Origin: Elusimicrobiota bacterium
GTDB lineage: Bacteria > Elusimicrobiota > Elusimicrobia > JACQPE01
Reading direction: 5' to 3'
DNA length: 63,450 nt
NCBI GenBank assembly: GCA_016180815.1
Contig: JACPAN010000022.1
Span: forward strand, 1-63,450
Made by a program: the position numbers and the translations under genes. Numbering within the stretch: the first letter of the stretch is position 1; each line of letters opens with the position of its first letter. Positions 3,084 through 59,464 of this stretch are shown here, in pieces. The notes under the pieces were generated by a model, which worked only from the letters and a program-made list of their open reading frames with translations, was not told the DNA's origin and did no database searches.

Positions 3084-3222
3084 TTCTTAACCCCCATCGC
3101 GAAGCTTCGCCGAATAAACCCTTCGACTTGTTAAATTTTTAGCCCCAGACTTGATACGAATCCAGTCAAAAAAAAGTCAAAACGCGGGGGGTCGGGTTGG
3201 CGGCCTGGGTCTCAGAAAAAGT

Positions 3223-3951
3223 TCAGCGTTTAGGCGAAGCGAGGTCTTCGGAAAGTTTTGTATCGAAACGATAACCGTCGTAGGCTACGGTTTTGATCAA
3301 CTCTTTAAAATCGCCCAATTTCCGATGAAGAATAGCGATGCGCGCATTGAGATTATGATCAAAGCGGGGGTAAGCGTCGTGGTTTTGCCTGATTCTCCAG
3401 CATTTTAAGATCAGTTCCTGGCGCGTGGCAATGTCTCCGCGTTTGACCATGATCGGACGCACGATGCTGAATTCGGTTCTCGTGAGTTGGATAGCGCTGA
3501 TATCGGAAATTTCCAGGAGACGCGAGGGATGAAGCGTCACATAACCTATGGCCAACACCCCATCGCCGTTTTTTTCCAAGCGCGCTTGGTTAAGTTTGGC
3601 GGCGATCCGAACTTCGAGAAGTTTCAAATTGGACGATTTGACGATGAATTCGCTGTTGCCCGAGCTCAGAACGTATTTTGCGGCGCCAGCGTCCTCATTA
3701 GCCGTCAACATGAAAATAGGAACATGTTTGGTAGCCGGATAGAGCCGCAACATTTTGAAAATATCCAAGCCGCTTTTATGACCCAACTTCAAATCCAATA
3801 AAATCAGGGCATAGTGTCCGGTTTTGGCTAGTTCCAAGGCCTCGCGGCTTGTCCACGCCAGGTCGAGCTCGTAGCCGTGGCTCGTCAAAAACTCGCGAAC
3901 TAATTCGGGCCAGTTTTCATCATCGTCGATGAGAAGAATTTTATCGCTCAT
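3223..3951 (-). CDS. Two-component response regulator, OmpR-like
   Basis: 242 residues. The receiver domain (1-120) has the acidic triad DDD at 9-11, phosphoacceptor Asp53 in LLDLKLG, Thr83 in MLTANED and Lys105 in EFIVKSS, so all the key phosphotransfer residues are present. Residues ~135-235 form a divergent winged-helix output domain (QLTRTEFSIVRPIM, then ARIAILHRKLGD and YDGYRF), as in OmpR/PhoB proteins. It is an orphan: no histidine kinase lies next to it. It is divergent from mtnA across ~215 bases, and its target genes are unknown. It could control the two surface-protein genes downstream on the same strand. Confidence 0.88.
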   Translation of the reverse strand: MSDKILLIDDDENWPELVREFLTSHGYELDLAWTSREALELAKTGHYALILLDLKLGHKSGLDIFKMLRLYPATKHVPIFMLTANEDAGAAKYVLSSGNSEFIVKSSNLKLLEVRIAAKLNQARLEKNGDGVLAIGYVTLHPSRLLEISDISAIQLTRTEFSIVRPIMVKRGDIATRQELILKCWRIRQNHDAYPRFDHNLNARIAILHRKLGDFKELIKTVAYDGYRFDTKLSEDLASPKR

Positions 3952-39126: not shown

Positions 39127-39879
39127 TTAGGGAGGAGTGACGCGGACCCAAAGCATCAGCCGGCCGTTGACCGTAATAAAGGCCAGATCAAAGCGATACC
39201 GCTCAAAGGTTACGCTTTTTTTCTGATCGGGATCAGCCCCGCCGTTTTCGGGAATGTCGGCCGCGTCCACATGAAAGCGGCGGAAGGCCTGATAGTTTTC
39301 CGGGCGGACATTATTCATGAGATAAACCCATCGTCCGCGCTGTCCGATTTTTGAAAAGTACGCGATTTTAAAGGGATGAGAACCGAGAGCGCGGGCTGTA
39401 TCGTAAAGCCCGCCCAACAGGTCCTCGATCGGGATCGTGTGGCTCTGAAGGCCCCGCGTTTCGGGAGTTAAATAAAGATCCCCCATAAATTTATTTTGGA
39501 CGATATTCCTGGGCACGTATTTAACTTCATAGCGGGAACCGCCCAGTTCATAAACCGGGCCGCTCATGCTGCGCGCGGGGCGATAAATGCTCACGGTATC
39601 GATGGCGTTGGGCCGTCCGCCCTGCGGGGTCAACAGCATATAGAACTTTCCGTACCCGTCCATGAAAATGTTTTCAAGGGCGCCGGCCTCTTCCCCGGGT
39701 TTTTCCTCCTGCCCGCTGAAATAATACGTCGTTTGGTTGCTTCCCAGCGCGCGCATGGTGGATGTTCGATAATGGGTGTTTAAAATATTCGCGGCATCAA
39801 ATTGGTGCGTGCTGGCCTGTGCTAAGGCGGTCATGGAGGCTAGCAAGACCAGGGCTGATTGAAGCAAGAATTTATTCAT
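39127..39879 (-). CDS. Secreted protein of unknown function
   Basis: 250 residues from ATG 39879 (MNKFLLQSALVLLASMTALAQA signal, cleaved near AQA; longer upstream frame lacks signal character). The mature part is beta-rich with no cysteines. It has charged strands such as GSRYEVKYVPRNIVQNKFMG and RYRFDLAFITVNGRLMLWVR. Not recognised; the likely location is periplasm. It precedes gmhA in the same direction and follows a hairpin cluster behind the giant gene, which suggests a separate transcript from the latter. Confidence 0.78.
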   Translation of the reverse strand: MNKFLLQSALVLLASMTALAQASTHQFDAANILNTHYRTSTMRALGSNQTTYYFSGQEEKPGEEAGALENIFMDGYGKFYMLLTPQGGRPNAIDTVSIYRPARSMSGPVYELGGSRYEVKYVPRNIVQNKFMGDLYLTPETRGLQSHTIPIEDLLGGLYDTARALGSHPFKIAYFSKIGQRGRWVYLMNNVRPENYQAFRRFHVDAADIPENGGADPDQKKSVTFERYRFDLAFITVNGRLMLWVRVTPP

Positions 39880-39933
39880 CAGGACAATCAAATTATCACT
39901 TTGACAAAATCGCCGCAAATGACTTTGGTCAAG

Positions 39934-40004: not shown

Positions 40005-43000
40005 TCAGGGCGCAGCCGGGCTTGCCGCGGAACGGATGACGCCATAGCGCTCGGCGCGGGCGCGCAAGGCCGCCTCATAAGCCGCGATCGAATCCGCGGA
40101 AAAAACGATCACGTCTTGGCCCCCGTCCGGCCGGCTAAACGTGTAGTCTTGCCGGACGACGGCCAACACGTCTTCTCTGGAGCGGCCGTTTAAGCGCTCG
40201 GCCAGGTAGCTGCGCACGGATTCGTCGCCGAGCTCGAACGACGTCACATCCCCGCGCGCGTTTAAGTGAACCACGCCTCCCTGAGTCAACAGTTCCGGGT
40301 AGCTGCGTTGAAATTCATAGCGCCGCCGTTCGTTTTCAAAATTTTCCCGGGCCACGTTGTAGCCTAAAAACGCCTGGTGGATTTCCCGGACCCGGCCGTT
40401 TGAATCGAATAAAACCAGGGCCATGGTTTGGGGGTTAAAGAGCCACGTGCCGTCTCTGGACAGATAAGAATTCGTCGGCGCATCATAAATGGTTTGCGTC
40501 GCGGCGTCGAGCGTTTGACGCACGCGGCGGCGCCAATTTTCCAATGCCTCCGCGCCCGCGAGCAAGCGCCGGCTGTCGACCCTCCCGTTTTCAAAGCGGA
40601 CATGCGCGGTGCCGCCGGGTCCGCTGATGATACGCTCCCAGGAATCATGGTCGCGCCCGCGGGTTTCGGCGGTTTGAACGCGGGCCTCGGCTCCGGGGAT
40701 GCCGGGGATGAGCTGGCCGGATACTTCGGAACCCGTGGGCATCACTTCCAACAGGAATGAACCGTCCGGCGCAAAACGCACGCCGATGGACCGCAAGGAA
40801 TTGACCACTTGCGTGTAGGTCTCCCCCTGGGGGAGGACTTGAAGCTGGGTGTCGCGCCAATGGCCGTAGGCGCCCGGCACAAGGCGCCGCTCGCGCAGTT
40901 CGATACCGCCGGTGAAGGCGGCCAGCACGCGCCCTCTTAATACTTCGTAGTCTTCCTCCCGATACCGCAGCGAGCGCTCTAAAGCCTTGGCCCCGGGGCG
41001 AACGACCCGGTTGGTTGATTGATCCGTGCGCGGATCAACTTCGACCAAGCGATCGGAGTTCCTGCCGGCCAAGGTCAAGCTGATATAGTAAAGCGCGCGA
41101 TCCCAGGTCGAGGCCGGGTCCCGGGCCACGAGTTGCGGGTAGCCGCTGGGGTCGTTTAAGTGATCTTGGGGTTGGGGAACAACTTTGCGGAAAATCGCCT
41201 GATTGGCGATGTCCCAGGCCAAATCCAAGGCAAAGCCCCAGCTTTGCTCCATGGCGCCCTCTCCGGTTAAGGCATGAATGCGATCCGCGGTGTTGGCGCC
41301 GCCCACGCCGATGGTCAAAGGCAACAGCCAGGGGGTGAAAAAGGCCTGAGTCACTACTTCGCCGGCAAAACCCAAGGTCAACAGCCAGGGCCGGATTTGA
41401 GTGCGGGTCAGATTGCCGCGCACTTCCCCGCGGAATTCTTTGAGCATGTCAGCCGAGTAAACCACGGTTGTGCCGGCATCGGGATTAACCACGGCCACGG
41501 CCCGGGCCAAGCCCGCATCCGCTCCTCCGGGGAAGCGGTTCCTGGCCACGGGGTAAATTCGATTGTCATCCATGAAATAAGCCCAGGAAGAGAGCGGCCC
41601 GTCTTGCGTGGTGTCCTTGTTGACGATGCGGCGCACGCGGAAATCCCGGTCGATTTCAATGGCTCCCCAGTTGCGGTGCCAACGCGTCGTCGCCGGTCCG
41701 GCGCCGCCGAAGCGTTGGCGCCACTGGGAGCCGTCTAAGGCCGTCATTAAGGCTTCGACGATATTGCCGTCCGCATCCAAAACAACGGTCATGTCGTTTG
41801 ATTTAAACAATCTGTTTTTAGGGTGATGGTCTTGCGCCTCGTCCAGATCGTCGTCCGACATGAAAACTTTTTCGATGCGCCCTTGTTCGTTCATCAAAAA
41901 ACCGTAGGACGTTTTCAAGTACACATAGGCGGATTGCATGGCGCGCCTAAGTTCGCGATGGGCGTCGCGCCTTAAACGGCTGTCGCCGTTTTGAGTCGAG
42001 GTGATTTCGCGGACATCCGCGCCGAATTGATCGAGTTCATCGGCTGTCTGAATGCCGGCTAAAATTTCCGGAGTCCGGCCGAAATAGGCGAAGAAGCGAA
42101 GGCTCCGGTTGGGCGCATTGGGCGCGTTCATTTCTTCCGGGCTGATGCGCATTGGGACCCCCTCGATGGGATTTTCTTCGAATACCAAAAGGCGGCCGTC
42201 CCTCAATAATTCCTCGAAGGTCCAGACCCTGGCCCCACCTTGCCCGGTGAAATAATAGTCGCCGTTTAAATAGATTTCCATGGCTTGGCGCTGCCAAAAA
42301 GTGCGATTGGCGATGTAAGTGGGATCTAACGCCCGCTGCGTGCTGCGCCGCCATAAAACGAGTTGCCGTCTTGAGGCCAGCTCAAAGGCTTCGCTTTCAA
42401 GCAGGACGCGGATGGGCTCCTGTTCGCTTTCGCTGCTTGGCGTTTCCGGCGCGCCGCGGTGCGGATTCATCACTGCGAAGGAGTCGGGGTTGCTGTGATA
42501 AGCCTGCTCCCTTAACCACCGGCCTTCGTTTTCTTCGAAGCGGCGCGTGACCAGGTTAAATGACCGGGCCGTTTCCTCGCGCCCGGGGTGAAATTCCATA
42601 AACCCGGCGGCCGCGGCTTCTTGAATCGTGCTTGGCGCCTGTCCCCTGTAGTTGAACGGCGCCAAGAAAATTCTTCGAGAAGGGTCCTCCAACAATTCAT
42701 CGGACAGGCTGATGCGTTGCCCGGTTCCCGAATCATAAGCCGTCAAGCGCCGCTGGGTGCGCCATTCTTCAAGTTCCAGGGCGCTGACCACCAGCGTGGC
42801 TCCGTACGCGGCGTTGCCGTCGGCCTCAAGCGCGGTCAGGACTCCGGCCGGCCGGTTGTCCCGCCTGAAGCGCAGGGAGGCGTCCCTGCGGATGCGCTGG
42901 GCCATGTTCTCGACATTGGACCGTTCGTCCTCGGGCAAAGCCGTCAAGCGCGCATTAATTTGCGTGCCCCAGGCTTCAAGGCGGGCTTGTTTTTCATCGG

Positions 43001-46000
43001 GCGTCAGTTCATGCCAGCGGGCCACGGGCGTGGGATTGATTTCACGGGCCAGGCTCAAGGCTTCGGCGTTGCCCATGGCGCGCACGCGCCGGTCCATGGT
43101 CCAGGGATCGCGGCTGCCCCGGCCGAGGCCTCTGGGAATTTGAATGCCCAGAAGCTTCAAATCAGCCTCGATTTGCAGGTAAAGCTCGTGCATTTTGGAC
43201 GTTGCCAGCAGGGTCTCTTCAAAGGCATTGTGGTAGTGATCGAGCAAATCGATATTGCTTGGATCGCGTTCCATCTCCGTTTTTAGGTTGTAGAGGAAAA
43301 CTTCCCGTTGGGCCAGTTCATCGACTAAGTAGCGCAGGGCGAAGTAGTTTTGAGCGAGCCGTTCCCGGGCGTCGCCGGCTAAAGTGCCGGCGGCCAGCAC
43401 CGAGGCGATATTGGAATGGATGACGAAATCAATGTCCCGGAATAAATCCGCCCCCGGCGTTCGCCCGGCCGTGGGCGCGGACACCATCATGCCGCCGATG
43501 ATGCCGTTCCTTAGGTAGCCCAGGACAAAGGACGGGCTCATGGATTGGTAGCGCAGGTTGTCCACGATTGCCTGACCCTGAAGGCGGCCGATGGCCAAAT
43601 CTGATTGCAGGCTGCCCAGCACGGGCGCGTCGCCGACGACGTAGCGCAGAGCCGTGTTGACTAAAACATTCAAATCATCGGTATTTATGGGGTGGGCGCG
43701 GATTACGGAGGGATATTCTTCTGGAACGAGGGCGAATTCGCTTTGGATTTGATTTTCGGTTTCCCGGATGCGGCCGGCGATGCGTTCGCGAAGAGCCTGA
43801 TCGACGGCTTCGTTCAATCGGTCGGTCAGGTATTGGTGTCGCCAAACGAGCCCGGAAAGCCGCGACTGGCGCATATCGCTTTCCATGCGCTCCGTGCGCA
43901 CTTCGCGCTCGCGCTCGAGCTCCTCGGCGCGGGCCAAGAGGCGCGGGTTGATCATTTGCGGCCGCGAGAGCATGATTTGAATCATGCCTTCATAATACGT
44001 GACTTGATGGCGGGTATTGGGATCGAAGAAACGCTTGGAGCGTCCGGCTGTTCCCGGCGTGGGGTCCGCTTCTTCGGTGACGTAAACGCGCGCGCCCCAG
44101 CGCAAGAGAGGCTCGGAACGCCGCTCCGTGATCAGGGGCGTGTGCCTTGACGTGATCGTGCCGCTGAAGCCTTTGGCGATGGACGCGGACCAGGCCAGTT
44201 CGCGGTTTAAACGGTTCATCATCGAAGGATCCTCGGCGATGGCGCGCTCGGCCGAGCCCAGGCGCACCGTGGCCCGGTTTCGATCGATGACCATTTGTCG
44301 GTCATAGCGCTCCAGCGTGCGTTCCAGCTCCAGGCGGTGGCGCCGCACCGCGATTAAATCCACTTGGCTCGATCCGGTCGGCCCTTCTTCGCCGAAAAGT
44401 CCGGCTACGATATCGCCGACCACCTGGAACAAGGCGCCGATGGGATCGGTGCGGATATTCATGCCGCGTTCCCTCAGCAGCAATTTGCCTTCCATCGCGC
44501 GCACGACTTCCAGCCGGGCTTCCAGCGCCCGGCGTTGAATTTCCGGCGCGCGCGAGAGGTTGGATTCGATCCAGGGGCGCAGGGCTTCGGCCGTGGATAC
44601 CGGGTTTCTTCTCATGAGTTCTTCCAGGTCGAGTTCGTGCGTATTGGGGTCAAGGCCCAGCAGGATGAGCAGGCGCAGCGATTCTTTTTGCACGGCCATA
44701 CGCAGTTCGAGGATTTCGATATTGAATCGCGCGATATCGCTGAGGTCTTGGGATTCTTCGGCCCGGCGGATCAGTTCCCGTTTCGCGGATTCGGAAAAAA
44801 CCAGCCTGAGGTAGGCTTCCACGATTTGCCGTCGCAGGTCCAGAGACTGCAAGTCCCTGTCCGCAACCGTGGCCCGGGCCAGGGCATGGGCGAAGCGTTC
44901 TTCCACCCGGCTCGTGCCGGAAGATTTGATGGCTAATTCGATGGAAGGCAAGAGCATGCCCCAGCCTCCGGTGGTGAAAATAGCCGTATTGGTTTCAAAC
45001 CAGATATTGTTGACCGGATTCCAGCGCGCGCCCAAACGCACGCCGAGGTTGAACCGGGCCTGAGCGGCTTCCTCCAGATGCTGGGCGACCTGGGTTTCCA
45101 ACGCGAGTTTGGCCAGAGTCCTGGAGCGGGATTCGGCTTGCTGAATCAGCGGCGCAAATTCATTGACGCGATAGCGTTCGCGTCTGGGGGGCGTGGCGGG
45201 GGCGGCCAGGCGCGGCAGGCGCGCCAGCTCAAGATAAATGCGGCTCGATTCTCTCGCGGCTTCGGCCAAGTCATCGAGCAACCGCAGGCGTTCGGTGAGG
45301 GTTTGCGCGGCGTCGAGCCTCTCGCGAAGTCCGGCGATATAAACATCCATGATTTCTTTTTCGCGCTCCAGGGCCCAGCGGTCGAAGCGCATCACGTCCG
45401 GATTGTTCTGGAGATTTTCCCGCATCAGGCGTTCGGCTACGTCCAAGTCCGCGATCTGCCCTTCCAAAACCGTGGCTTCGCGGCGATGGCGCCGATCCGC
45501 GTCCCACAGCGTCAATTTGACCGAGCCCCCGATGCCGGCGAATGAATTGCCCATCTCATCCCATAAATTGGCGCCGAGGCTGATCGTTAATTCATCGATG
45601 AAGGGCAGGAAATTCAGAGGGGAAACGAATGAGATGGCGCGCTCGGCCCAACCCGGCCGGGCCGTGTCCCCCGGGTCGGTTTCCGAAAGCCGCTGCAAAA
45701 ATTGCCGCCACCCGTTTCTAAATTCAAACGCGCGAGTGACCGCGGCCAACGTGGCTTCGGGATTGTTCGGGTCAATGGGGATGGATTCGATTTCTCTCGG
45801 CAGGGGATCCCGCAAGGCCAGGCCTAAGCGCGCCCGCAGCAGGGCTTCGGCTTGGGCTTGTTCGGAGCGGGCTTCAAGCTCCTCGAGCTCGATCGCGGAC
45901 AAGAGCGTCGGATCACCCGCCACGTCCGGGCGGGACTTGATGCCTTCCAATTGCCGGACCCTCAATCGCGCCAGCACCACGCGCATGCCCGCGGTTCGAA

Positions 46001-49000
46001 AACCCTCGATGGATTCGTTATAAGCGGCTTTGAGATCAAGAAGCATCACTTTCATCCGGGCGATTTCCCTCATCGCCGCTTCTTTCTGAGGACGGGTGAG
46101 GCCCATGAAAATTTCAGCGCCGACCTGGATGCCTCCGGCGGTTGAGGAGAATCCATAGGCTTTTTGAGAAACCGAGCCTCCCGAAGTCCCTTCGCTTTGC
46201 GGGTCGCTATAGCCCGTGCCCAAAACCACGCCCGCATTGGCGGACAAGCCCGCATTAAATACCCGCTGCAATTCGACGGCTTCCGCTTCCCGGGCGCCGA
46301 TGGCTTGGGTTAGGGCCGCGATCCGGGTATCGCGGTCTAAAATTCGCCGCAGAGCCAGATTCATGGAATAGGAGTCGCCGGTGGCCGTGCTTGTGGAACG
46401 CGGCAGCACGCGGTCCAACTCTTCCCGGAAATCCCCGAGCGTGTCCCCCCCGCGCAGCGCCTCCTCCGCATTGGCGCTCGCATTCCTGCGCAATTGTTCG
46501 AGCGTCAATCCGGTGCGCACGCCCAGCATCAGCCTGGGCACGGATCGGATGCGGTCTGTGCCGTACGATAGGTAAAGTTCGGAGCCCGCGCCCAGGCGCA
46601 AATTCAACGCCACTTGGCCGGTGTATTGTTCGCCGTAGCGCGCGCCGCGCACTTCGATGGAGATGCCTCTGGGCAGAATCAGCGCCACGCGTCCGGCCAG
46701 TTCCAGTTCGTTGTTTTGATCGAGCGCGGCCCTGGTTTCGCCCCGGATCGAGGTGGGTTCGCCGAACATATTGAAGTGGATTTCTTTGACGATCCGGGCG
46801 CCTTTCCAAAATTTATGGTAATTGTCCGCCACGTTTTCGCGGTACTCATCGGAGACTTCGCCGTTGTTGACTTCCGTGCCGTTTTCATCTTCGATGAAGA
46901 ACTCGACGCTAAAGGTATTTTTTGTGGAGAAAATTTTGGCTAAATCGAATTCCACGCCCGCATGGCGCTGGATGTACTGCAGGATCGCGCCTTCGATATG
47001 CACGCTTTCCTCGTTCATGTTCAACGGGTCGATGGAGGTGTTGATGGTGCGGGAGAATTCGTACGGGTCCCGGGCGAAGAGCCCCAGCACCGAAGCGTTG
47101 ATCCCCACGACTTCGTGCAGGTACAGCGTGGCCTTGGCCCGGCCGCCGACCACATAGGGGGGAGCGTCCGGATTGCAGCCCGGGGGCGCATTGCCGTCGG
47201 CCCCCGGTTCGCAGGTCGCCCCTTGATTGAGAGGAAAATCCCCGAATCCGGTCAATGAAATAAAGAGGCGGTCCTGCAACACCATGAACGCCATGTTTTC
47301 AAAAACCATGAGCCGGTAAATATGTCCCTGCTGCAGGTTTTGATGGATGTCGATGACCGTGGTATTAATGTAGCGCTCGTCCGCGCGATCGCGTTCGAAT
47401 GTCGCCCGGATGCCCCGCGCGCCGCGCGGCGGCTCGGCTAAATCTTTCCAGTCGTATAGCGACAGCGACATGTTGTGCCCCAACACTTCGCCTAAATTGC
47501 CGAATTTGAGCAGCGTGTCCGAGGTGAAATTATTGACGACTTGATCCCCGGAGCCTAAGGCCGTGCCGGCCGTGAAATTGACCACAACATAAAAGGAATC
47601 CGCGCCCGAACCAACGGGGATGACTTCATAATTGGATAAGCCCAGGGCCGAAACCCAGGAGTTGACGGAAGGCGTTTGGCCGCCGGCTAAGGCGCCCTGG
47701 CTCAAAATGCGGTTGACCGTATTGCGGCGCACGAAGAGAGCCCCGGAACGGTTATTGATTTGGTCCGGATCGTCGAACCCGTCCGAGGGGTAAAGCAATT
47801 CGCCCTGAAGCACCATTTCCCGGCCCCGAGCGAAGCTGGGATCGTCGGGGTTAACCCGCTCCAGCATGGCGGCGACTCGTTCGCGTTCCACGCGCAGGCG
47901 TTCCAGCGTTTCCCTTAATTTTTGGCGTTGTTTTTTCGTTTCCTCGGCGGCGTAGATGAGGAATTTTTTGTTTTTCAGCCGGCGTTCGATTTCTTCGCCG
48001 GCGTCGCTGATGGCGCGCGCCAGGCGCCTCATGGCCGGGTCTTCACGGGGATTGATGTTTTCAAGCCAGCGTTTAATGTTGTTGAAGTCTTCCAGGAAGG
48101 TGCCGGAAAGTTCGTTGATGAATTCTTCGAAGGCTTGCAAGCCTTCGGCCTCGGTATTAAAGAAGCTTTCTTCCGCCTGGTGGAGAGTGCCGAAACCGTC
48201 GCGATAAAGTTTGATGAAGCCCAGGTAGGTGTCCGCCTTGGCCGCGGCCGCGGGCCGCTCATAAGTTCTCAAAAAATCCAGCAAGGCATTGGCCATGTCG
48301 AGTTGCAGGTGGGAAATTTCACTTTGTTTGCCGATGACATCCGCCTCAAGAAATTGGAAAAAGCTGGGGCCGGAGGCCAAAAAGGAGCGTTTCCAATGGT
48401 AAAACTCGAGGCTGGTCTCGGCCACGCCCATGGCGCGTTTCAAGGCCGCATAAGCGCGATGGGCATAACCCTCGGGCGAAACGGCCTGGAAGTCCTCACG
48501 GATCATGTTGACGAGTTCATCCATTTGGGTGTTGCTGATGACGCCGAGGCGATTGACCAGCAAATCCCGCTCCATTTCCAAGCCTTCGATGGCCAGGCCT
48601 TTAAGGCCGGCGGCCACGGCCCGGCCTGCGTCCATGCGGCTTAGGGTATTGTCGTAATAAGGCTCGGGCCCGATATTATCCGGGAATCCGGCGTCTTTTC
48701 GATAGGCCAGGCGCAGCGCGTTCAACGTGGACTCGGCGATTTTAAAATCGATGACCGCATAGCCGAAGGTCAACAAAGCGAAGCCTTCCCGCCGGGTCAA
48801 GAGACTGGCGACTTGATCGGGCGTGGCCTGCAATTCCGGATCCTCGCGCACGCCGATATAAAAGCATGCGCCCCGGGCCTGGGGATTAGGGGCATTGTCT
48901 ATACAATCGCGGATTCCTTTTAATTGCCGGAATTCATCCATGCTGGTTCTAATGGCGCCTTCGGACGTCTGCAGGCTGGCGATCAATTCTTCGGTCCACA

Positions 49001-51374
49001 AATGGACCGAGGTGAAATGAGTATCTCCGAATTCATCCGCTTCGCGCTCGCTGATGGCGCGCAAAATGTCCAAGAATTTTCGGACCTTATCATAGAGAGG
49101 TTTGATGTCGTTGTCTCTTAAATCGGTCCAGTCCGCGATTTCTTTATCCACGACCGCCGGGTCCAGGAATGTGCCCGCCAAATTGCCCCAGCCGCCGTTT
49201 AATAGATTCTCGATATTGCCGATGGACGACAAGAGCGCGTCGGCTTCATTTAATTTGTCCTGAATTTCCTGGATGCGCTGCTCCACTTCCCGGACAAAAT
49301 CGCCGCGCAGGGCTTTTTGATACATTTCCTCTGCGATACGTAGTTTGCGCTGGACATCTTCGCGTTTATTCGCGAGCGCCCCTATGTCTTGACGGTTGCG
49401 TTCTTTTTCGCGCTGCACTTCTTCCAGCATATCCCTCAAGCGCCGGGTGGCCAGATCCAGGAACATGTAGCCGCGCTTCAAGAGCAGAACCTGAACCAAT
49501 TCGGTGTTGGCGCGCATGATATTTTGCATGGAGCGTTCGGTGCGGGCGATTTCTTTGGCTTGCTGGTAGATTTCAAAGAGGGTGGCCTCATTGCTCATCG
49601 CGGATTGATAAGCCGCGATCGCGGCTTGGACTTCGCGTTCGGTTTCCTCCAGAACCCGCACCTGGTCGCGCAGCACCGGATCCCCGCCGTTGGGGTCGGC
49701 TTCAAGAGAAGCTCTTAACGTTTGATAGGCGGCGACTTCCGAGGCCAGACGCCGGGCGTCGGCATCGCTTTTGGTGGCTCTGGCCAGGGCCGCGTCATCG
49801 CCTAAGAGCCTGTAAAATTCGTTTTGTTCAAGCCGGCGCGCCGCGCGCCTGCTGAACGCTTCCCAGTCTTCTTGAGCCGCTCGCGCGCCGCGAAGAACCC
49901 GGAGCGCTTCGGGGTCGTCGCGGTGCCCGATATAGGCCTCGATGTCGGCGCCCGCGGCTTCCAGCTGATGGACCTCGGCCGGATCCGCGATCTCGACCCA
50001 GCCGAGTTCGTCTCTTTTGTAATAACGGACATTGCCGACTCGGGAGAGGTCCGTTCCGGAAGCGAACGTTTGCGCGACTTGACCTTTATTTCGTCCGCGC
50101 GTATACGTGGCGATCGCGTAGTTTTCACGCAGGACTCCGTCAAACCGTCGGGCCAGTTGAGCGGATGATTGTTCGCCGCGCGGATGGGCGCGGTTGGGCC
50201 TTGCCCGCCTTGGACCGGAGGATCGCCGGGACCGGGCGTCGGGGGAACGGGGTGTATCCGAGGTTGCAACTTCTTCATCGGCGCCGGCCGGCGGTTCTTC
50301 GTTTTCTTGTGCCGATGCGCGGTTTTGATCGGGTCCTTTGCTCTCGCGGCGTTTAGCCGGCGGCGCGCGCGGGGAAGAACCTTCTCCGGCCGCAGCCTGG
50401 ACCGCGATGGGAGCTCCTCCGGAAACCGCGTCCGTGGCGATGGTTGCGGCCTGAGCCGCGGGAAAACTAAGGGAGGCGTAGAGCGGCGGCTGCGGGTGTT
50501 CTTGGGGTTCGCCCGCATGCTGATCAGCGCCCGCGGCCGCCATGGCCGTGTTGACCGACATGCGTCCGACTTGTCCCCCTAGGCCCGCGAAAAATTCTTG
50601 AATGCCGCGCCAAATGGATTCGCCTAAGGATGGGTTTGCGGAAGGCCTGGGCTGCGCGGCGGGCGGCGCACGCTGTTGGGAATCGGCGCCGATCTGTTCG
50701 GAAGGCCCATGGGCGGGATCGGGTGTTCTACTAAAGGAGACGGGATTCGGTTGCGCCTCCGGCGCAGGATCGGCGGGTAGGCGCACGGGCCGTTTGGCCT
50801 GAGGCCTTAGGGATGTGTCGGCTGCGGCGGTTTCGGCATCAGCTGAAGATTGTTCAAAAACGCGCGCCAGGGCATCGCGCACCGATAGAGGCTGCCTTAA
50901 AAGCTGAGGGTTGCTGCGAAGATGCTGTTTAGCCGATTGGAAGGCCGCGATATTGGGCGGTATCCCGCGCCGGCGAAACTGCATGCCGAGCCAAACGCCG
51001 AAATTGCTCAGACGTCCGCTCTGTGCGGTTAGCAGCGAGACCCAGAAGTCATCTTCCAGTAGGTTCAGCCGTTGAAGTTGCTGGATCGTTTCGGTTTCAA
51101 AGGAACGGAAATCAGACTCCAGGCGGGCTTTTTCTTCCGGCGGCAAGGCGGGGTAATCGCGTTCGCTGGAAATGCCTTGAGAATTAAGAAAAAAAGAAAA
51201 AGAGCCGGCGGGTGTAGTCCGATTTTCTCCGCCGCTCGCTATAGTTTGGCCCAGGGTTGCGTATAATTCGACGCCCGGCAGGCATAACAATTGGCATGCC
51301 GCCAAGCCTACGGCAACCCCCCTGCGAAATTTCAAATTTGAAATTTCAAATTTTTTAAAAAGGGGGTCCTTCAT
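40005..51374 (-). CDS. Giant exported protein with TolC-like helical modules
   Basis: About 3,789 residues in one uninterrupted frame; ATG 51374 is preferred to TTG 51389. A hydrophobic export segment covers ~20-45. Approximate order: Pro/Ala-rich disordered region (190-410); long charged coiled-coil helices (490-1180); beta-rich part (1190-1625); and five stretches resembling TolC outer-membrane-factor halves (about 1667-1810, 1925-2060, 2068-2250, 2270-2440, 2570-2740). In these stretches barrel-like strands (PSIELAIKSSG) alternate with helices (RRQIVEAYLRLVFSESAKRE, APEIQRRALEARLEVVRAME). The last 1,000 residues are unrecognised, with a hydrophobic stretch near 3,325-3,365. It has very few cysteines, and no repeats are evident at DNA level. 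Function unknown; an envelope-spanning or surface scaffold is plausible. The TolC resemblance is by eye. Confidence 0.9.
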   Translation of the reverse strand: MKDPLFKKFEISNLKFRRGVAVGLAACQLLCLPGVELYATLGQTIASGGENRTTPAGSFSFFLNSQGISSERDYPALPPEEKARLESDFRSFETETIQQLQRLNLLEDDFWVSLLTAQSGRLSNFGVWLGMQFRRRGIPPNIAAFQSAKQHLRSNPQLLRQPLSVRDALARVFEQSSADAETAAADTSLRPQAKRPVRLPADPAPEAQPNPVSFSRTPDPAHGPSEQIGADSQQRAPPAAQPRPSANPSLGESIWRGIQEFFAGLGGQVGRMSVNTAMAAAGADQHAGEPQEHPQPPLYASLSFPAAQAATIATDAVSGGAPIAVQAAAGEGSSPRAPPAKRRESKGPDQNRASAQENEEPPAGADEEVATSDTPRSPDARSRRSSGPRRARPNRAHPRGEQSSAQLARRFDGVLRENYAIATYTRGRNKGQVAQTFASGTDLSRVGNVRYYKRDELGWVEIADPAEVHQLEAAGADIEAYIGHRDDPEALRVLRGARAAQEDWEAFSRRAARRLEQNEFYRLLGDDAALARATKSDADARRLASEVAAYQTLRASLEADPNGGDPVLRDQVRVLEETEREVQAAIAAYQSAMSNEATLFEIYQQAKEIARTERSMQNIMRANTELVQVLLLKRGYMFLDLATRRLRDMLEEVQREKERNRQDIGALANKREDVQRKLRIAEEMYQKALRGDFVREVEQRIQEIQDKLNEADALLSSIGNIENLLNGGWGNLAGTFLDPAVVDKEIADWTDLRDNDIKPLYDKVRKFLDILRAISEREADEFGDTHFTSVHLWTEELIASLQTSEGAIRTSMDEFRQLKGIRDCIDNAPNPQARGACFYIGVREDPELQATPDQVASLLTRREGFALLTFGYAVIDFKIAESTLNALRLAYRKDAGFPDNIGPEPYYDNTLSRMDAGRAVAAGLKGLAIEGLEMERDLLVNRLGVISNTQMDELVNMIREDFQAVSPEGYAHRAYAALKRAMGVAETSLEFYHWKRSFLASGPSFFQFLEADVIGKQSEISHLQLDMANALLDFLRTYERPAAAAKADTYLGFIKLYRDGFGTLHQAEESFFNTEAEGLQAFEEFINELSGTFLEDFNNIKRWLENINPREDPAMRRLARAISDAGEEIERRLKNKKFLIYAAEETKKQRQKLRETLERLRVERERVAAMLERVNPDDPSFARGREMVLQGELLYPSDGFDDPDQINNRSGALFVRRNTVNRILSQGALAGGQTPSVNSWVSALGLSNYEVIPVGSGADSFYVVVNFTAGTALGSGDQVVNNFTSDTLLKFGNLGEVLGHNMSLSLYDWKDLAEPPRGARGIRATFERDRADERYINTTVIDIHQNLQQGHIYRLMVFENMAFMVLQDRLFISLTGFGDFPLNQGATCEPGADGNAPPGCNPDAPPYVVGGRAKATLYLHEVVGINASVLGLFARDPYEFSRTINTSIDPLNMNEESVHIEGAILQYIQRHAGVEFDLAKIFSTKNTFSVEFFIEDENGTEVNNGEVSDEYRENVADNYHKFWKGARIVKEIHFNMFGEPTSIRGETRAALDQNNELELAGRVALILPRGISIEVRGARYGEQYTGQVALNLRLGAGSELYLSYGTDRIRSVPRLMLGVRTGLTLEQLRRNASANAEEALRGGDTLGDFREELDRVLPRSTSTATGDSYSMNLALRRILDRDTRIAALTQAIGAREAEAVELQRVFNAGLSANAGVVLGTGYSDPQSEGTSGGSVSQKAYGFSSTAGGIQVGAEIFMGLTRPQKEAAMREIARMKVMLLDLKAAYNESIEGFRTAGMRVVLARLRVRQLEGIKSRPDVAGDPTLLSAIELEELEARSEQAQAEALLRARLGLALRDPLPREIESIPIDPNNPEATLAAVTRAFEFRNGWRQFLQRLSETDPGDTARPGWAERAISFVSPLNFLPFIDELTISLGANLWDEMGNSFAGIGGSVKLTLWDADRRHRREATVLEGQIADLDVAERLMRENLQNNPDVMRFDRWALEREKEIMDVYIAGLRERLDAAQTLTERLRLLDDLAEAARESSRIYLELARLPRLAAPATPPRRERYRVNEFAPLIQQAESRSRTLAKLALETQVAQHLEEAAQARFNLGVRLGARWNPVNNIWFETNTAIFTTGGWGMLLPSIELAIKSSGTSRVEERFAHALARATVADRDLQSLDLRRQIVEAYLRLVFSESAKRELIRRAEESQDLSDIARFNIEILELRMAVQKESLRLLILLGLDPNTHELDLEELMRRNPVSTAEALRPWIESNLSRAPEIQRRALEARLEVVRAMEGKLLLRERGMNIRTDPIGALFQVVGDIVAGLFGEEGPTGSSQVDLIAVRRHRLELERTLERYDRQMVIDRNRATVRLGSAERAIAEDPSMMNRLNRELAWSASIAKGFSGTITSRHTPLITERRSEPLLRWGARVYVTEEADPTPGTAGRSKRFFDPNTRHQVTYYEGMIQIMLSRPQMINPRLLARAEELEREREVRTERMESDMRQSRLSGLVWRHQYLTDRLNEAVDQALRERIAGRIRETENQIQSEFALVPEEYPSVIRAHPINTDDLNVLVNTALRYVVGDAPVLGSLQSDLAIGRLQGQAIVDNLRYQSMSPSFVLGYLRNGIIGGMMVSAPTAGRTPGADLFRDIDFVIHSNIASVLAAGTLAGDARERLAQNYFALRYLVDELAQREVFLYNLKTEMERDPSNIDLLDHYHNAFEETLLATSKMHELYLQIEADLKLLGIQIPRGLGRGSRDPWTMDRRVRAMGNAEALSLAREINPTPVARWHELTPDEKQARLEAWGTQINARLTALPEDERSNVENMAQRIRRDASLRFRRDNRPAGVLTALEADGNAAYGATLVVSALELEEWRTQRRLTAYDSGTGQRISLSDELLEDPSRRIFLAPFNYRGQAPSTIQEAAAAGFMEFHPGREETARSFNLVTRRFEENEGRWLREQAYHSNPDSFAVMNPHRGAPETPSSESEQEPIRVLLESEAFELASRRQLVLWRRSTQRALDPTYIANRTFWQRQAMEIYLNGDYYFTGQGGARVWTFEELLRDGRLLVFEENPIEGVPMRISPEEMNAPNAPNRSLRFFAYFGRTPEILAGIQTADELDQFGADVREITSTQNGDSRLRRDAHRELRRAMQSAYVYLKTSYGFLMNEQGRIEKVFMSDDDLDEAQDHHPKNRLFKSNDMTVVLDADGNIVEALMTALDGSQWRQRFGGAGPATTRWHRNWGAIEIDRDFRVRRIVNKDTTQDGPLSSWAYFMDDNRIYPVARNRFPGGADAGLARAVAVVNPDAGTTVVYSADMLKEFRGEVRGNLTRTQIRPWLLTLGFAGEVVTQAFFTPWLLPLTIGVGGANTADRIHALTGEGAMEQSWGFALDLAWDIANQAIFRKVVPQPQDHLNDPSGYPQLVARDPASTWDRALYYISLTLAGRNSDRLVEVDPRTDQSTNRVVRPGAKALERSLRYREEDYEVLRGRVLAAFTGGIELRERRLVPGAYGHWRDTQLQVLPQGETYTQVVNSLRSIGVRFAPDGSFLLEVMPTGSEVSGQLIPGIPGAEARVQTAETRGRDHDSWERIISGPGGTAHVRFENGRVDSRRLLAGAEALENWRRRVRQTLDAATQTIYDAPTNSYLSRDGTWLFNPQTMALVLFDSNGRVREIHQAFLGYNVARENFENERRRYEFQRSYPELLTQGGVVHLNARGDVTSFELGDESVRSYLAERLNGRSREDVLAVVRQDYTFSRPDGGQDVIVFSADSIAAYEAALRARAERYGVIRSAASPAAP
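51326..51353. repeat. Tandem 14-bp repeat in the giant gene's first codons
   Basis: GAAATTTCAAATTT occurs twice in perfect tandem. The AT-only, nearly palindromic unit encodes KFEISNLKF here, a sequence that usually marks intergenic repeats read by chance. The start codon of the giant gene could therefore lie further downstream. Confidence 0.75.
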
Positions 51375-51747: not shown

Positions 51748-51776
51748 CTTATAGGCTTTACCGGATTAAGGGGCAA
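51748..51776 (-). promoter_or_regulatory. Candidate promoter for the small gene and giant gene
   Basis: On the minus strand TTGCCC (51771-51776), a 17-base spacer, then TATAAG (51748-51753). It stands ~45 bases upstream of the small gene's ATG. No other promoter-like pair stands out before the giant gene. Confidence 0.5.
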
Positions 51777-51835
51777 TGAGGCCGGGAAAACCCGATTACG
51801 AACAGGTTACGCATGGTTACGCTGCGCCGTCCGGC

Positions 51836-51867
51836 TTGACATTGGGGGTCGCGGGCCATGGTATAAT
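51836..51867 (+). promoter_or_regulatory. Consensus promoter hexamers before the NACHT-like gene
   Basis: TTGACA (51836-51841) and TATAAT (51862-51867) are both perfect sigma-70 hexamers, but the 20-base spacer is longer than the usual 17. Transcription would start near 51874, just before a terminator hairpin. Confidence 0.55.
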
Positions 51868-51879
51868 GTTTGTTATTGA

Positions 51880-51910
51880 GGGAGAGCCGGGAGGCTCTCC
51901 CTTATTTTTT
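51880..51910 (+). terminator. Intrinsic terminator or attenuator
   Basis: Perfect 9-bp stem GGGAGAGCC / GGCTCTCCC with a GGGA loop, followed by TTATTTTTT. It begins about 6 bases after the predicted transcription start and ends directly against ATG 51911 of the NACHT-like gene, so it would stop most transcripts after ~35 bases. Confidence 0.8.
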
Positions 51911-53479
51911 ATGCCATCGCCTCAAACCTTTATCTTCGGTAAACAGGAGCTTTGCTCCATTTTTGGGGATTTACGCCGCGTTGAACGCATTAAGCAGCGC
52001 GTTTTTCATTTAAACCGGCTCGGGGAGAACCTCGGGATCAAAATCACTTATTCCAGCGTGGATGCGACATTGGCCATACGCTTCCCTGTCGCCGGAGGCG
52101 CGGAAACCCTGACCCAGCGCCTCACCCGCGGCAAGGGGCATATTCAGAGGGCCATCGGCCAGGCTTTGGCTCAGCGGCTTGAATCCGCCAGAGAGCCGAT
52201 GGCTGCGCTGGAAGCTTTGGCCCAAAACCAACAGGCTTGCCTTAGCCGGCGTTTGCCGGGTTGGGGCGCTTGGGGTTTGGATGAAATCTGGGTTAACCCC
52301 GTGACCCAATGGGATCAGCCGGTTCCCGGCCAAAATAGCAATTTAGGCCTGGCGGACCTGATCAGCGCTTACATGACAGGGGAGTCCGGCGGTTCGGTGA
52401 TTGTTCTCGGCAATGCCGGAACCGGAAAAACCAGTTTGGCTTATCAGGTTTTCAAGAGATTGTCCGGCGCTTCCGGAGCGTTAAAATTTTATCCCCTTTA
52501 TGTTCCCGCTCAAAGCCTAAGTTTTTCCCCACCTTCAAAAGGAATTTGTTGGGGTTCGCTTCCGGGCGCCCTTACTGAAGTCAATACTGAAATTCAGAAC
52601 CGCGCTTTTCAAGAAGGAGGCCTGACCCTCCTTCTTGACGGTTTGGATGAAAATCCGAACATTTTTGATTTGACGGATCCGGCTGTTTTGGCTTTTTGGG
52701 AGAGCGTTTCCAGGAATCGCTGTTTGTTGACCATTCGCAAAGACTGTTGGGAAAAAATGGGCCTTCGGCGGTTGGAGCGTTTCTTTTCCCAGCGTCCATC
52801 CATCGTAACGCTTGGGGATTGGCCGTTTTCAACCATCAAACTTTTGTTCGCTCGTTTAGCGGAAATCGCCGGGCAACATCTTCCGGCCGCGGCCGCCGTT
52901 CTTAAACATTGCTCCGGTTTGGCTGATGCGGATTTGACTAAATTATTGGCCATGGTTCCTAAAACGCCATTAGGGTTGAACGCTTATGCCTCGTTGGTTC
53001 TCAATCAGGAGGGCTTGCTTCCGAAAAACGGGGACATGGTCCGCGAAGCCATGTTGCGTTGCGCTTTGTCCTGGGAAGCCGCAAAACAGTCGTCCGGCAT
53101 CGATACGCAGACAATGACCGGGCTATTAACCCTTGTCGTTGGGCAGGCGCAAAAAAAGGAGACCTCGGTCTCATCATTTGAGCGGGTCTGGACCGAGGTT
53201 TGCCGGCGTTACCCGTATCTTGAGGGCCGAAGTCAAAAAGTTTTTTCCTGGCTGGAGCGGTTGCCGTTTTTGTCTTTGGATAAAGAGAGGGCCTGTTTGC
53301 TGATCGAGCCCGGCATAGCCGAGTTTTTAACCCGGCGGGCCCATTTTTTCAGAAAAAATAAACACACCCCGAAAGTTTTTTCGGTTGTCATCGACCAAGA
53401 TCGCGGCGTTCAACGCCCGCGTGACGCCCAACGCCGGGGCCGCTCTCGCCGTCGTCAACGGCGGTCCCCCAATCCCTAG
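51911..53479 (+). CDS. NACHT-like STAND ATPase
   Basis: 522 residues from ATG 51911; the same frame is open from 51776, but that region is promoter-like. Residues 1-150 are an uncharacterised helical N-terminal part. The ATPase has Walker A VLGNAGTGKTSLAYQVF and Walker B LTLLLDGLDENPN, the DGLDE form typical of NACHT proteins. Sensor and winged-helix-like regions follow (NRCLLTIRKDCWEKM, KTPLGLNAYASLVL). Such ATPases act as oligomerising switches, often in phage defence. There is no obvious nuclease, TIR or repeat sensor domain. The last ~25 residues are Arg-rich and could result from a frameshift at the T6 run 53376-53381. There is no Shine-Dalgarno at 51911. Confidence 0.8.
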   Translation: MPSPQTFIFGKQELCSIFGDLRRVERIKQRVFHLNRLGENLGIKITYSSVDATLAIRFPVAGGAETLTQRLTRGKGHIQRAIGQALAQRLESAREPMAALEALAQNQQACLSRRLPGWGAWGLDEIWVNPVTQWDQPVPGQNSNLGLADLISAYMTGESGGSVIVLGNAGTGKTSLAYQVFKRLSGASGALKFYPLYVPAQSLSFSPPSKGICWGSLPGALTEVNTEIQNRAFQEGGLTLLLDGLDENPNIFDLTDPAVLAFWESVSRNRCLLTIRKDCWEKMGLRRLERFFSQRPSIVTLGDWPFSTIKLLFARLAEIAGQHLPAAAAVLKHCSGLADADLTKLLAMVPKTPLGLNAYASLVLNQEGLLPKNGDMVREAMLRCALSWEAAKQSSGIDTQTMTGLLTLVVGQAQKKETSVSSFERVWTEVCRRYPYLEGRSQKVFSWLERLPFLSLDKERACLLIEPGIAEFLTRRAHFFRKNKHTPKVFSVVIDQDRGVQRPRDAQRRGRSRRRQRRSPNP

Positions 53480-54549: not shown

Positions 54550-56667
54550 TCAACGATTCCATATATAGCGGTAGTTGGAACGCAAGCTGCGCTCGATTTC
54601 GTCGGCTGTTCTGAGCGAATTGCCCCCTAAACCTCCTGCGTCAATGACCACTAAACTTCCGGTCGGGCGTTCAACGCCGTTGATTATTTGGGGACGTGTC
54701 AGAATTCCAAATTGCAAATCGGCGCCGCCGAGCCCGGCTTCATTGATCCACTCGGTTATTTGTCGGCCTTCTTGGACGATATTTTCTAGGGTGTCTTCAG
54801 TCATAACCGTACGCAGGCGATTTATATCGGATAAAGGGGTGGTGCCTGGTCTTACAAAAACATCCACCATCTCAACTTCCTCCATGGCAAACGCCGGATT
54901 GCCTCCAACATTAACTTCGCCGTAGAAGCGGGGCATGTATCCGGACGGCAAGATATCTTGGACTTGTTGGTAGGTGTCAATTTCTCTTCTAAAATGAGTC
55001 AGTAGATTATCCCATTCGCCTAAAGCCGTAGATTCCGGTCCTAAGGAAATTTTAATAGCGACGTGTTCGCCGCTAGCCAATGTACCGCGAAACACAACTC
55101 CATTGGCTCCGCCAGAATGACTGATGATATCAGTCAAGCGCGCTTCAGGAAGCCCTTCCTCGGCGATATGTGTTAAGTGTGACGGGGGCGGGTCATAGAG
55201 GTGACGCGTATCCGGAGCCGATGAGAAAGTTTCCCGGCGCAGGCGTAGAGCCTCATCCATTACTTCTCGGTTTCTGAGAACAGTTCTTGACGCGGTTCTT
55301 ACCGGCATCCTAGCCGCGACTCTTCCAGCCACCAGTCCCGCACTCGGCCCCAGTGCAATGTCAAAAGCGGTTTCTCCGGTCATCGTTAAGCGGGCCAGAA
55401 AGTCCGTCCACCCGCCTTCTTGCTCTACAATACGGCCGGGCTCATAAGCGCCGCCTAATTCAATCAGAAGTTCTTCATCGGTGATTTCCCGGTCCCTGAA
55501 AGCGGCCAACGCCTGCTCGCGCGCGTCATTGCTGATCATCGTGGGCGCGTTGTTCAAAAAGTATTCTTCTCGTTGAGCCCGGATATTGCTTTCAATGGCC
55601 TTTTGGATTTGGGGCCGGGTTTTGATCTCATCGATAAAAAATTGATCCCCGTGAAAAGCGCGGGCGTAGGGGGCCCGGTAAAGATTGGAGAGCATCCCAA
55701 GGGTGTATTCGTCGCCGTGAAATAGCGATTGATACAGTTGCCCGGCGGCAATGGCGCCGTAATAAGCGCTTTGAACAAGGTCTACTGCGGGCTGCAAGAG
55801 GTCTAAGGCGCTGAAAAAAGCGGCTACAAATAAACTTGATGAAACAGTTTCTTCCCGTTCCTCATGACTTATCGTCTTGCCGGCTTGACTTCGCCAATTT
55901 CCATTGGTGTGGCGGTGTTGCTGGCTGAAATTGCACCAATCGTACCGGCGTACTTCGCCGAGAGCGAGGAAAGGGTCGTCTTCCCAGGAGTCAACTCTGC
56001 CGTCTGGCAGATGGACGCGCCGGATACGTTGACTGTGGTATTCAAACAGCGTTTGTTTTCCGTCCTCGGAGGAGAGCGGCTGGCCGGAGGATTGAAGAAA
56101 AATCCCCCGAGCCACATTCAGCACGCGGGTGAAATTGTAAGTATCACCGGAAGGAGATGCGGTAATCAGCTCCGTTCCTCTTCCGAAGTGCGCGTTCCAA
56201 ATCCCCATGAGCCCCGAAGTTTTTCGGACAACAGCCCGAAGATGAGCCGAATCGCCGGCCTCCACATGAAGGGAAAGGCTTTGCGGAGTCTCGTTGGCAT
56301 CAGCGACCGGTGCCGTTAAATCACAAAGCCAGCTGGATAAAGGTCCCGTACGCCAGGATGCCCAGGAAAAATGTTGCCTGAGATTTTGCGCGATGTTGTG
56401 GCTGGCCGTTAATCTTGTTTCTGAACAGGCTTGGCCAACGATCAGCGAATCCAGATTGATATGGGTTTCCAGGAGTCGGTCATTTTCATAAATACGCGAT
56501 CCCTGAAGACCGTTTTCTTCAAAATGAGCGGCTGTCCGACCGTCGGCAAGGGGTACGGCTGAAGCGGGGGCAGGGGTATCGGTGGGTTGGGCCCACAAAA
56601 AAGAGACGGACAATGAAATCACGCTGCATAGAAGCAGCGTGTTGCCCCGTAAACTTTGCTGTGGCAT
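54550..56667 (-). CDS. Exported protein with C-terminal protein-kinase-like domain
   Basis: 705 residues with a signal peptide (cleavage near LWAQP). Residues ~30-290 are a beta-rich part with paired cysteines (GQACSET, WLCDLT). Residues ~290-450 are helical, with a Gly/Ala-rich segment (GPSAGLVAGRVAARM). Residues ~515-700 look like a kinase fold: a Gly-rich loop GGANGVVFRGTLASGE, Lys539 in VAIKIS, Glu562 as the alpha-C candidate, Asp650 in GADLQFGIL in place of HxDxxxxN, and Asp676 in VVIDAGG in place of DFG. The catalytic-loop Asn is missing, so activity is uncertain. It is probably a secreted kinase or pseudokinase, perhaps an effector. Flanking genes encode other exported proteins. Confidence 0.78.
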   Translation of the reverse strand: MPQQSLRGNTLLLCSVISLSVSFLWAQPTDTPAPASAVPLADGRTAAHFEENGLQGSRIYENDRLLETHINLDSLIVGQACSETRLTASHNIAQNLRQHFSWASWRTGPLSSWLCDLTAPVADANETPQSLSLHVEAGDSAHLRAVVRKTSGLMGIWNAHFGRGTELITASPSGDTYNFTRVLNVARGIFLQSSGQPLSSEDGKQTLFEYHSQRIRRVHLPDGRVDSWEDDPFLALGEVRRYDWCNFSQQHRHTNGNWRSQAGKTISHEEREETVSSSLFVAAFFSALDLLQPAVDLVQSAYYGAIAAGQLYQSLFHGDEYTLGMLSNLYRAPYARAFHGDQFFIDEIKTRPQIQKAIESNIRAQREEYFLNNAPTMISNDAREQALAAFRDREITDEELLIELGGAYEPGRIVEQEGGWTDFLARLTMTGETAFDIALGPSAGLVAGRVAARMPVRTASRTVLRNREVMDEALRLRRETFSSAPDTRHLYDPPPSHLTHIAEEGLPEARLTDIISHSGGANGVVFRGTLASGEHVAIKISLGPESTALGEWDNLLTHFRREIDTYQQVQDILPSGYMPRFYGEVNVGGNPAFAMEEVEMVDVFVRPGTTPLSDINRLRTVMTEDTLENIVQEGRQITEWINEAGLGGADLQFGILTRPQIINGVERPTGSLVVIDAGGLGGNSLRTADEIERSLRSNYRYIWNR

Positions 56668-56747
56668 AAATCAGTGTTAATTTTTAAAAGTTGCTTATTT
56701 AAAGGTTAACAGGGATTTTGAACCGACGGTAGGATGTTTTTTTGTCG

Positions 56748-57791
56748 TTACGGTGAAGATGGGCGGCTTAAACATCGTTGGCGCGCGCGGATCGAGCGGG
56801 TGAAGGACCATATGGGGCCGTGTTCCCTCAATCCTGCGGCGCTGTCAGCCGCTCTTTCAAGGGCATGTCTAAGATACCAGTTGGCCTGGGCGCAGGAATC
56901 CTCCGGTCTTGGTCCTAACTCCGCAAAAATAAGCTCGCCTCCCATGTCATAAACCGTATCCCCGCTTTCCGAACGAATGTCAGTGTATCCGCTTATCCAC
57001 CATTCGTTGAAACGGCTCCATTGCTGGCGCTGGGCAGCGTTGATTTTGGAAGAGGCGCTGTTTTTGACAAAGTCAAGGAGCCGGCTTTCACCTTCCTCCG
57101 CGGAAGAAAAACGTTCATCTTGGTCGCTGTCAATGAGGAAATGATAGGCCAGCATTTCAGCTAGAATTTCTCCTTCCGAACTGCTTTCAGCGACCCCGAG
57201 AACCTCCCGGGTGTAGGCATGGATATATTCGTGGGCCAAGGTCGGCAGTTCCAGACCTTCGGGAAGGCAAATGAACACATCGTTGATCTCAATGGCATGG
57301 GTTGAAGCATCATAGATACCAAATGTGATTCCATCGGGGTCAAGGCCCAGGCCGGCATACCGCAAGGACGGTTGATGTTCAAAGGTGGAAAGCATCCGGC
57401 CGAAGAAACTGCTTTCGCGGCCCATTTGATCAGCCAGATTCTGTAAAGACCTGGGGCCGACATAGGAATATCCTGGTCCGCGCGCCGCGCGACAAGGGGA
57501 ACCGGACCACAACATATGATCCAGGATGCGACAATCAAGCCCTTCGATTTCGGTTACACTGAAATCCTCGAAGGCGGTCAACGCTTCTTCTGAAACATTC
57601 GGTCTTAACCGGCTTGGGTCTGATGCATCAGGTTTTGCAAAACGATCCATGACAGCGTTGGATACCCGTGCCGCACCGAGGCATTCTTGAAGGCGATCCC
57701 GCGCTGCGGAAGCCGTCTCCGGGCTGATCGCATGGCCGAGGGTAACCCATGTTTTCAGAAAGATTACCACTCCTACGGTTATTGAAATCAT
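56748..57791 (-). CDS. Exported HExxH metallopeptidase-like protein
   Basis: 347 residues from ATG 57791, beginning with a signal peptide (ISITVGVVIFLKTWVTLGHA); an in-frame TTG lies nine codons upstream. The zinc motif is LAHEYIHAY (HEYIH at 196-200 if counted from the TTG), with candidate third ligands in SEGEILAEMLAYHF about 17-21 residues on, the gluzincin arrangement. Several cysteines (LQECLG, LDCRIL, SPCRAA, IFICLP, DSCAQA) suggest disulphides. It is probably a secreted zinc peptidase. It lies in the same direction as, and 80 bases upstream of, the kinase-like gene, so the two may be one transcript. Confidence 0.78.
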   Translation of the reverse strand: MISITVGVVIFLKTWVTLGHAISPETASAARDRLQECLGAARVSNAVMDRFAKPDASDPSRLRPNVSEEALTAFEDFSVTEIEGLDCRILDHMLWSGSPCRAARGPGYSYVGPRSLQNLADQMGRESSFFGRMLSTFEHQPSLRYAGLGLDPDGITFGIYDASTHAIEINDVFICLPEGLELPTLAHEYIHAYTREVLGVAESSSEGEILAEMLAYHFLIDSDQDERFSSAEEGESRLLDFVKNSASSKINAAQRQQWSRFNEWWISGYTDIRSESGDTVYDMGGELIFAELGPRPEDSCAQANWYLRHALERAADSAAGLREHGPIWSFTRSIRARQRCLSRPSSP

Positions 57792-58010
57792 TGACTTGTT
57801 ATTAATTGATAACACCAATGATGCTTTTTTGCCATGGGGCTGTGGACGCCATTGGAATCTTGCGATAGTTTTTTAAAGGCGAATTTAAAATGCACGCCGC
57901 GTTGTTTGAATCATTCGACACTGTGATCATCAAAGGACGTCGTGGCGCCGCTATCTTAGTCCTGGTACTATTGCGGGGAAGGCGGATCATGTTTATAGAG
58001 CAGAAGGGGG

Positions 58011-59447: not shown

Positions 59448-59464
59448 ATTCAAAGGACAAGAGA

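Follow-up and report, generated by a model that had tools for sequence, protein, structure and literature searches.

The window analysed here is a 63,450-nucleotide stretch of an Elusimicrobiota genome (contig JACPAN010000022.1), and its minus strand carries a giant gene whose product is probably a Sec-exported, pseudo-trimeric, single-chain TolC-like exit duct with large periplasmic arms. The central domain of this protein consists of six repeats, each corresponding to a TolC or outer-membrane factor (OMF) half-protomer of helix, beta hairpin and long helix, and together they are three TolC protomers' worth. The reading frame, the conservation of the protein, the OEP (PF02321) homology of modules A to C and, in the structure model of a homologue, the six-repeat topology and OMF fold were obtained directly from the tools described below. 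All coordinates are given in Table 1.

The giant gene is a single unbroken minus-strand frame of ~3,790 residues, and a plus-strand reading of 40005–51374 was rejected because it contains stops throughout. Two start codons were considered, and the ATG at 51374 is likelier than the TTG at 51389. The frame is a real gene, since no frame exceeded 386 codons when the window was base-shuffled 200 times and full-length homologues keep the frame across >2,200 residues at 43–46% identity. G+C content by codon position was 64, 45 and 69%, which is coding-like. The sequence-only reading that preceded this analysis had described a ~3,790-residue protein in one 11.4-kb open frame; the frame stands as described, with its strand corrected to minus.

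Table 1. Features of the giant gene and its product, with residue numbers of the protein, positions in the window, strand and basis or remark.
Feature	Residues	Positions	Strand	Basis or remark
Giant gene	3,794 aa or 3,789 aa	40005..51389	-	3,794 aa from TTG (51389), 3,789 aa from ATG (51374); stop 40005-40007
Signal-peptide-like N-terminus	6-45	51255..51374	-	Basic stretch, hydrophobic core GVAVGLAACQLLCLPGV, then ELYA
Pro/Ala/Arg-rich low-complexity linker	~190-420	50130..50822	-	Sequence
Helical/coiled-coil-like arm	~505-1056	48222..49877	-	Sequence pattern; conserved in L036 and L037
Family-defining conserved region	~1056-1672	46374..48224	-	Helical, then beta-rich
Single-chain OMF/TolC-like domain	1672-2756	43122..46376	-	Six repeats
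Module A, first-half type	~1688-1855	45825..46328	-	Hairpin 1713-1724/1754-1765; mapped from homologue model, also in window model
Module B, second-half type	~1874-2063	45201..45770	-	Hairpin 1931-1945/1948-1961; hhalign and both models
Module C, first-half type	~2078-2243	44661..45158	-	Hairpin 2113-2123/2130-2139; Pfam OEP match, hhalign, both models
Module D, second-half type	~2263-2405	44175..44603	-	Both models
Module E, first-half type	~2416-2552	43734..44144	-	Hairpin about 2451-2473; both models; weak likeness to C and A
Module F, second-half type	~2573-2746	43152..43673	-	Hairpin 2618-2626/2629-2637; both models; weak OEP signal
C-terminal region	2850-3794	40008..42842	-	Partly conserved (3049-3548)

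Searched against Pfam, the window protein matched OEP at residues 2080–2220 (E 1.4e-6, 28.7 bits, curated cut-off 22), so that one module of the six, module C, lies above the cut-off. The same stretch was also picked out by the OEP search of the genome, and OEP matches were found in 5/17 homologues; module F of the homologue L052 gave E 0.028. Slices of the family alignment were then matched by hhalign to a profile built from 30 ordinary OEPs of the same phylum. Modules A and B together matched the final part of the OEP first half and the second half (95.5%, E 1.6e-8), module B alone matched at 84%, and module C matched the OEP first half (91%, E 9e-7). Modules E and F together reached 9% against the second half, a weak signal for F, and modules D and E gave no OEP signal by sequence in this comparison. 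None of the control slices exceeded 2.2%, whether from the beta-rich region, the C-terminal region or the coiled-coil arms, and the arms were below 1%. Several stretches had earlier been read by eye as TolC-like, and this is borne out by the above-cut-off Pfam match at 2080–2220 and by the profile-profile matches of A+B and C to ordinary OEPs; an OEP hit is therefore present.

Profile comparison of the slices with one another gave modules A and C as the strongest non-overlapping pair (90.5%, E 1.3e-6, in register), and the next in-register pairs were C-E (5.7%) and A-E (4.5%). The pairs NcoilB-NcoilC, E-F, D-E, B-C and C2-C3 were ignored because their slice ends overlap. By sequence, the odd modules A, C and E appear alike, E weakly so, as the first halves of three protomers should be. 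Self-BLAST of the giant protein for internal repeats returned the identity line only, the repeats having diverged beyond what BLAST can align, and sequence searches of the PDB with single and profile queries gave no useful match.

AlphaFold2 was run on residues 1672–2842 of the window protein with 25 homologues at 17–24% identity in the alignment, and at such low identity the resulting model was poor (pLDDT 51.6, pTM 0.34). In this low-confidence model long helices alternate with five beta hairpins, and its first 13 Foldseek matches were OMFs, none of them significant. The prediction was repeated on the corresponding region of homologue L052 (1,115 residues), with an alignment whose members were 29–43% identical to it and to which the window sequence was added at 21%, and reached pLDDT 75.4 and pTM 0.72, a value which over this length means that the units are placed relative to one another with fair confidence. 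Six units were seen, each composed of a helix, a hairpin, a long helix and a further helix. The hairpins of modules A to C lie at 49–58/74–86, 238–244/254–267 and 434–448/464–474 of the model; module D is reduced to a single short strand (621–626), and its hairpin is absent from the window model, while E and F have strands at 776–790/796–811 and 969–977/980–988. Amphipathicity of the module strands was just moderately over background, and there was none in module F. The long helices of modules B and F, at 68 and 69 residues, are followed by helices of 39 and 38 residues; in OprM, H3/H7 have 67 residues and H4/H8 have 36 (PMC8277102). The structural repeat of OMFs, in which a pair of beta strands is combined with one long and two shorter helices, was thus found in the L052 model.

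All of the first 36 PDB matches of the L052 model in Foldseek were OMFs (OprN, OprM, CusC, TolC and others), the best with E 2.6e-5, probability 1.00 and a target TM-score of up to 0.58. The alignments covered ~420 columns, which is one protomer, and the query is 2.5 times longer, with six such halves. The predicted structure of the homologue therefore resembles TolC, OprM, OprN and CusC first, rather than unrelated coiled coils only. About five TolC-like modules had been counted in the sequence-only reading; the OEP halves are present, the count is six (~1688–2746) with D mostly lacking its hairpin, and the earlier figure is close to what could be had from the letters alone.

In TolC, it takes six half-protomer repeats to complete the barrel of 12 strands and the tube of 12 helices (PMC8277102), and because the giant chain also has six, a single-chain pseudo-trimer is the most economical reading. 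Residues ~1672–2756 would then be three TolC/OMF protomers joined in one chain, and judging from the pTM and the repeat count, one molecule probably closes on itself into a TolC-type tube. An outer-membrane beta-barrel would presumably be built from the six hairpins (11–12 strands), with the long helices making up an alpha-barrel in the periplasm. An OMF chain has its two termini in the periplasm, and the ~1,670 residues before the tube and the ~1,040 after it should therefore be periplasmic as well. These N- and C-terminal arms could serve as an adaptor or spacer that is permanently joined to the duct and reaches toward the inner membrane, and some cargo may be transported through the duct. 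A single-chain trunk, as proposed earlier, is thus the favoured interpretation, given the six repeats and the OMF fold of the homologue model.

A signal-like N-terminus was recognised by composition and hydropathy in the window protein, in L036 and L037 and in other complete homologues, and this segment of the window protein aligns with those of L036 and L037. The Pro/Ala/Arg-rich linker is mostly missing from the nearest homologues, where it falls in the gap between the aligned stretches of L036/L037. No OEP similarity was found by hhalign for the coiled-coil arm (~505–1056) against the OEP profile. The best-conserved part of the family is residues 1056–1672 (mean column identity 52%, alignment A5), rather than the TolC part; no convincing Pfam or PDB match and no known family were found for it, and it may have an adaptor or docking role. 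Searches likewise gave no known family for the C-terminal region (2850–3794), and hydropathy gave no C-terminal transmembrane helix in the window protein. Weak Pfam matches to NOG1_N, RtcR, Spc29 and DNA_pol3_tau_5 were rejected as under the cut-off or coiled-coil-like. The export segment, the long coiled-coil region and the beta-rich region of the earlier description were all recovered, the first as a hydrophobic N-terminal stretch found also in many homologues, the second as a coiled-coil-like pattern and the third toward the end of the conserved region.

For the distribution of the family, a profile search was performed across 341 Elusimicrobiota genomes. Matches were obtained in 53 genomes, two of which were dropped as short OEP-sized frames (427 and 434 aa; E about 1e-4), leaving homologues in 51 genomes from six families of one class. 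Nearly all match the family model end to end where the contig permits, and complete homologues are 3,500–5,600 aa long. The same module order is kept across the class in these 51 genomes, a recurrence that the sequence-only reading had proposed to look for. L036 and L037 come from two genomes of the window organism's family and share about 43–46% identity with the window protein over the aligned part, with L036 cut off by a contig end. A first genome scan with the window sequence as the sole query found no relatives, and the homologue alignment was needed. A scan of 84,980 species' genomes with one nine-residue pattern, which can miss distant relatives, returned 38 loci, and those with a phylum in their title were all Elusimicrobia/Elusimicrobiota.

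Some genomes carry two paralogues, a short form of ~3,700–3,900 aa and a long form of ~5,400–5,600 aa (L052 and L058, L055 and L087, L056 and L059), and the window protein has the size of a short form. In one complete genome (CP096137.1) the giant genes L072 and L073 are both split, with longest frames of 1,904 and 1,057 aa, which is either real decay or the result of sequencing errors. Membrane segments are predicted in many long homologues, around 290–550 or 1,100–1,400, and many of these chains end in a transmembrane helix with a basic tail. The long forms L087, L064, L058 and L089 have up to 2,600 residues N-terminal of the conserved core, with several predicted membrane segments; no Pfam family of a fused transporter domain was found in these N-terminal regions. 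Having predicted membrane segments N-terminally, at the extreme C-terminus or in both places, the long homologues would bridge both membranes, and the terminal helix with its basic tail would fit inner-membrane anchoring. The window protein is without such anchors and would be held only in the outer membrane. The trans-envelope scaffold that had been suggested as a second option thus gains from the anchors of the longer homologues, which the window protein itself lacks. It is a tentative proposal, and one we would not rely on, that the family is a one-protein trans-envelope conduit in which a single chain supplies outer-membrane channel and periplasmic adaptor in place of the three-part TolC assembly, with inner-membrane anchorage added in the long forms.

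Flanking genes were scanned in the window and at the homologue loci, and no adaptor, transporter or pump gene was found beside the giant gene, nor any conserved regulator gene. OMFs function together with a periplasmic adaptor and an inner-membrane transporter whose genes often lie close by, but they can be encoded apart from these partners, and missing partner genes are therefore weak evidence. Recurrent neighbours at the homologue loci were a histidine kinase, a K+ channel, an M48 peptidase and a relative of the IS200-like (Y1) transposase, the last (identified by Pfam in L087) being a ~300-aa same-strand upstream gene at 14 loci, mostly of long forms (L058, L059, L060, L063, L064, L065, L072, L078, L082, L083, L085-L088). 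In the window, 39127–39918 on the minus strand, 87 bp downstream of the giant gene, encodes a 263-aa protein with a signal-like N-terminus and no Pfam family; it is a possible operon partner, and the top neighbour clusters at related loci contained no homologue of it. A gene for a NACHT-type ATPase (Pfam NACHT E 2.2e-7) lies at 51776–53479 (+) and is transcribed divergently to the giant gene. Further away, 28087–32763 (+) encodes a 1,558-aa protein in which DUF5122 beta-propeller repeats occur together with a FlgD-like Ig domain and weak matches to thermolysin-type peptidases, 58011–59447 (+) encodes a hexapeptide/bactofilin-like repeat protein, and several exported proteins of no known family are encoded around the latter at 54550–60952.

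The lack of a conserved transporter, adaptor or regulator gene beside the giant gene would suit an OMF-derived structural tether, whose repeats anchor in the outer membrane and whose arms hold or space the envelope, without forming an open channel or transporting anything. The same genome has about eight other, ordinary OEP genes for transport, half of the giant protein's modules are degenerate, the hairpin of one module is reduced, and the long forms have inner-membrane-type anchors, all of which point the same way. A pure anchor, however, needs no exact six, and all six repeats, the number that closes a 12-strand barrel, are kept family-wide; the homologue model is also globally confident. 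We regard a tether as a possibility to be taken seriously, although we doubt it. That OMFs are as a rule multi-chain (PMC8277102), and that module D has no hairpin and may leave self-closure imperfect, could alternatively mean that the repeats of each chain go into a larger barrel or array shared by several chains, but six repeats already make one trimer and first and second halves alternate in the order expected of three protomers, which makes such an assembly improbable. Large regions of no known fold on both sides of the barrel might be passengers, the N- or C-terminal part of the protein leaving through its own barrel, as in an autotransporter; against such self-secretion, which we consider very unlikely, both ends of an OMF chain are periplasmic and the terminal helix and basic tail of the long homologues fit inner-membrane anchoring, not surface release. 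A generic coiled-coil likeness in an otherwise unrelated scaffold, compatible with the low identity and with most modules lacking a Pfam match, is scarcely credible when the protein's own coiled-coil arms stay so low against the same OEP profile and beta hairpins recur where expected.

As a probable single-chain TolC-like duct, the giant protein resembles the OMF family (TC 1.B.17 / PF02321; TolC, OprM, OprN, CusC) in its helix-hairpin-long helix repeat and its alternating half types. An OMF chain measures 472 +/- 30 aa and contains two repeats (PMC4827864), and trimers are made of separate chains (PMC8277102), whereas the giant protein has six in one chain, with the long extensions described above. 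Since that one chain holds three protomers' worth, its homotrimerisation is not expected. Neither a two-repeat chain of ~470 aa nor nearby partner genes were found, and this sets it apart from ordinary OMF members. Bucl8 of Burkholderia, a fusion of OEP with a collagen-like region, is likewise an OMF joined to large extra domains, but it has two OEP domains per chain and was modelled as a homotrimer (PMC4565658). The engineered, covalently linked AcrB trimer (cited in PMC8277102) also puts a trimeric efflux component into one chain; it is a laboratory construct of the inner-membrane pump, in contrast to a natural protein that would be an outer-membrane channel. Elusimicrobiota are rich in proteins >5,000 aa (PMC11573180), for which the consulted passages of that article give no COG assignment or function; its text does not mention TolC. 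No description of a natural single-chain TolC trimer was found in the literature searched, a scope with most subscription papers and bioRxiv preprints outside it.

TolC-type channels are homotrimers with exact threefold symmetry. If our reading is true, a natural single-chain TolC breaks this symmetry and leaves its thirds free to diverge, with the hairpin of module D nearly lost, and it would show the absorption of an oligomeric channel into one gene. The covalent link would join the outer-membrane channel to a periplasmic arm, and the protein could be a scaffold for asymmetric nanopores. For the Elusimicrobiota themselves, it would provide a function-based handle on their unexplained giant proteins.
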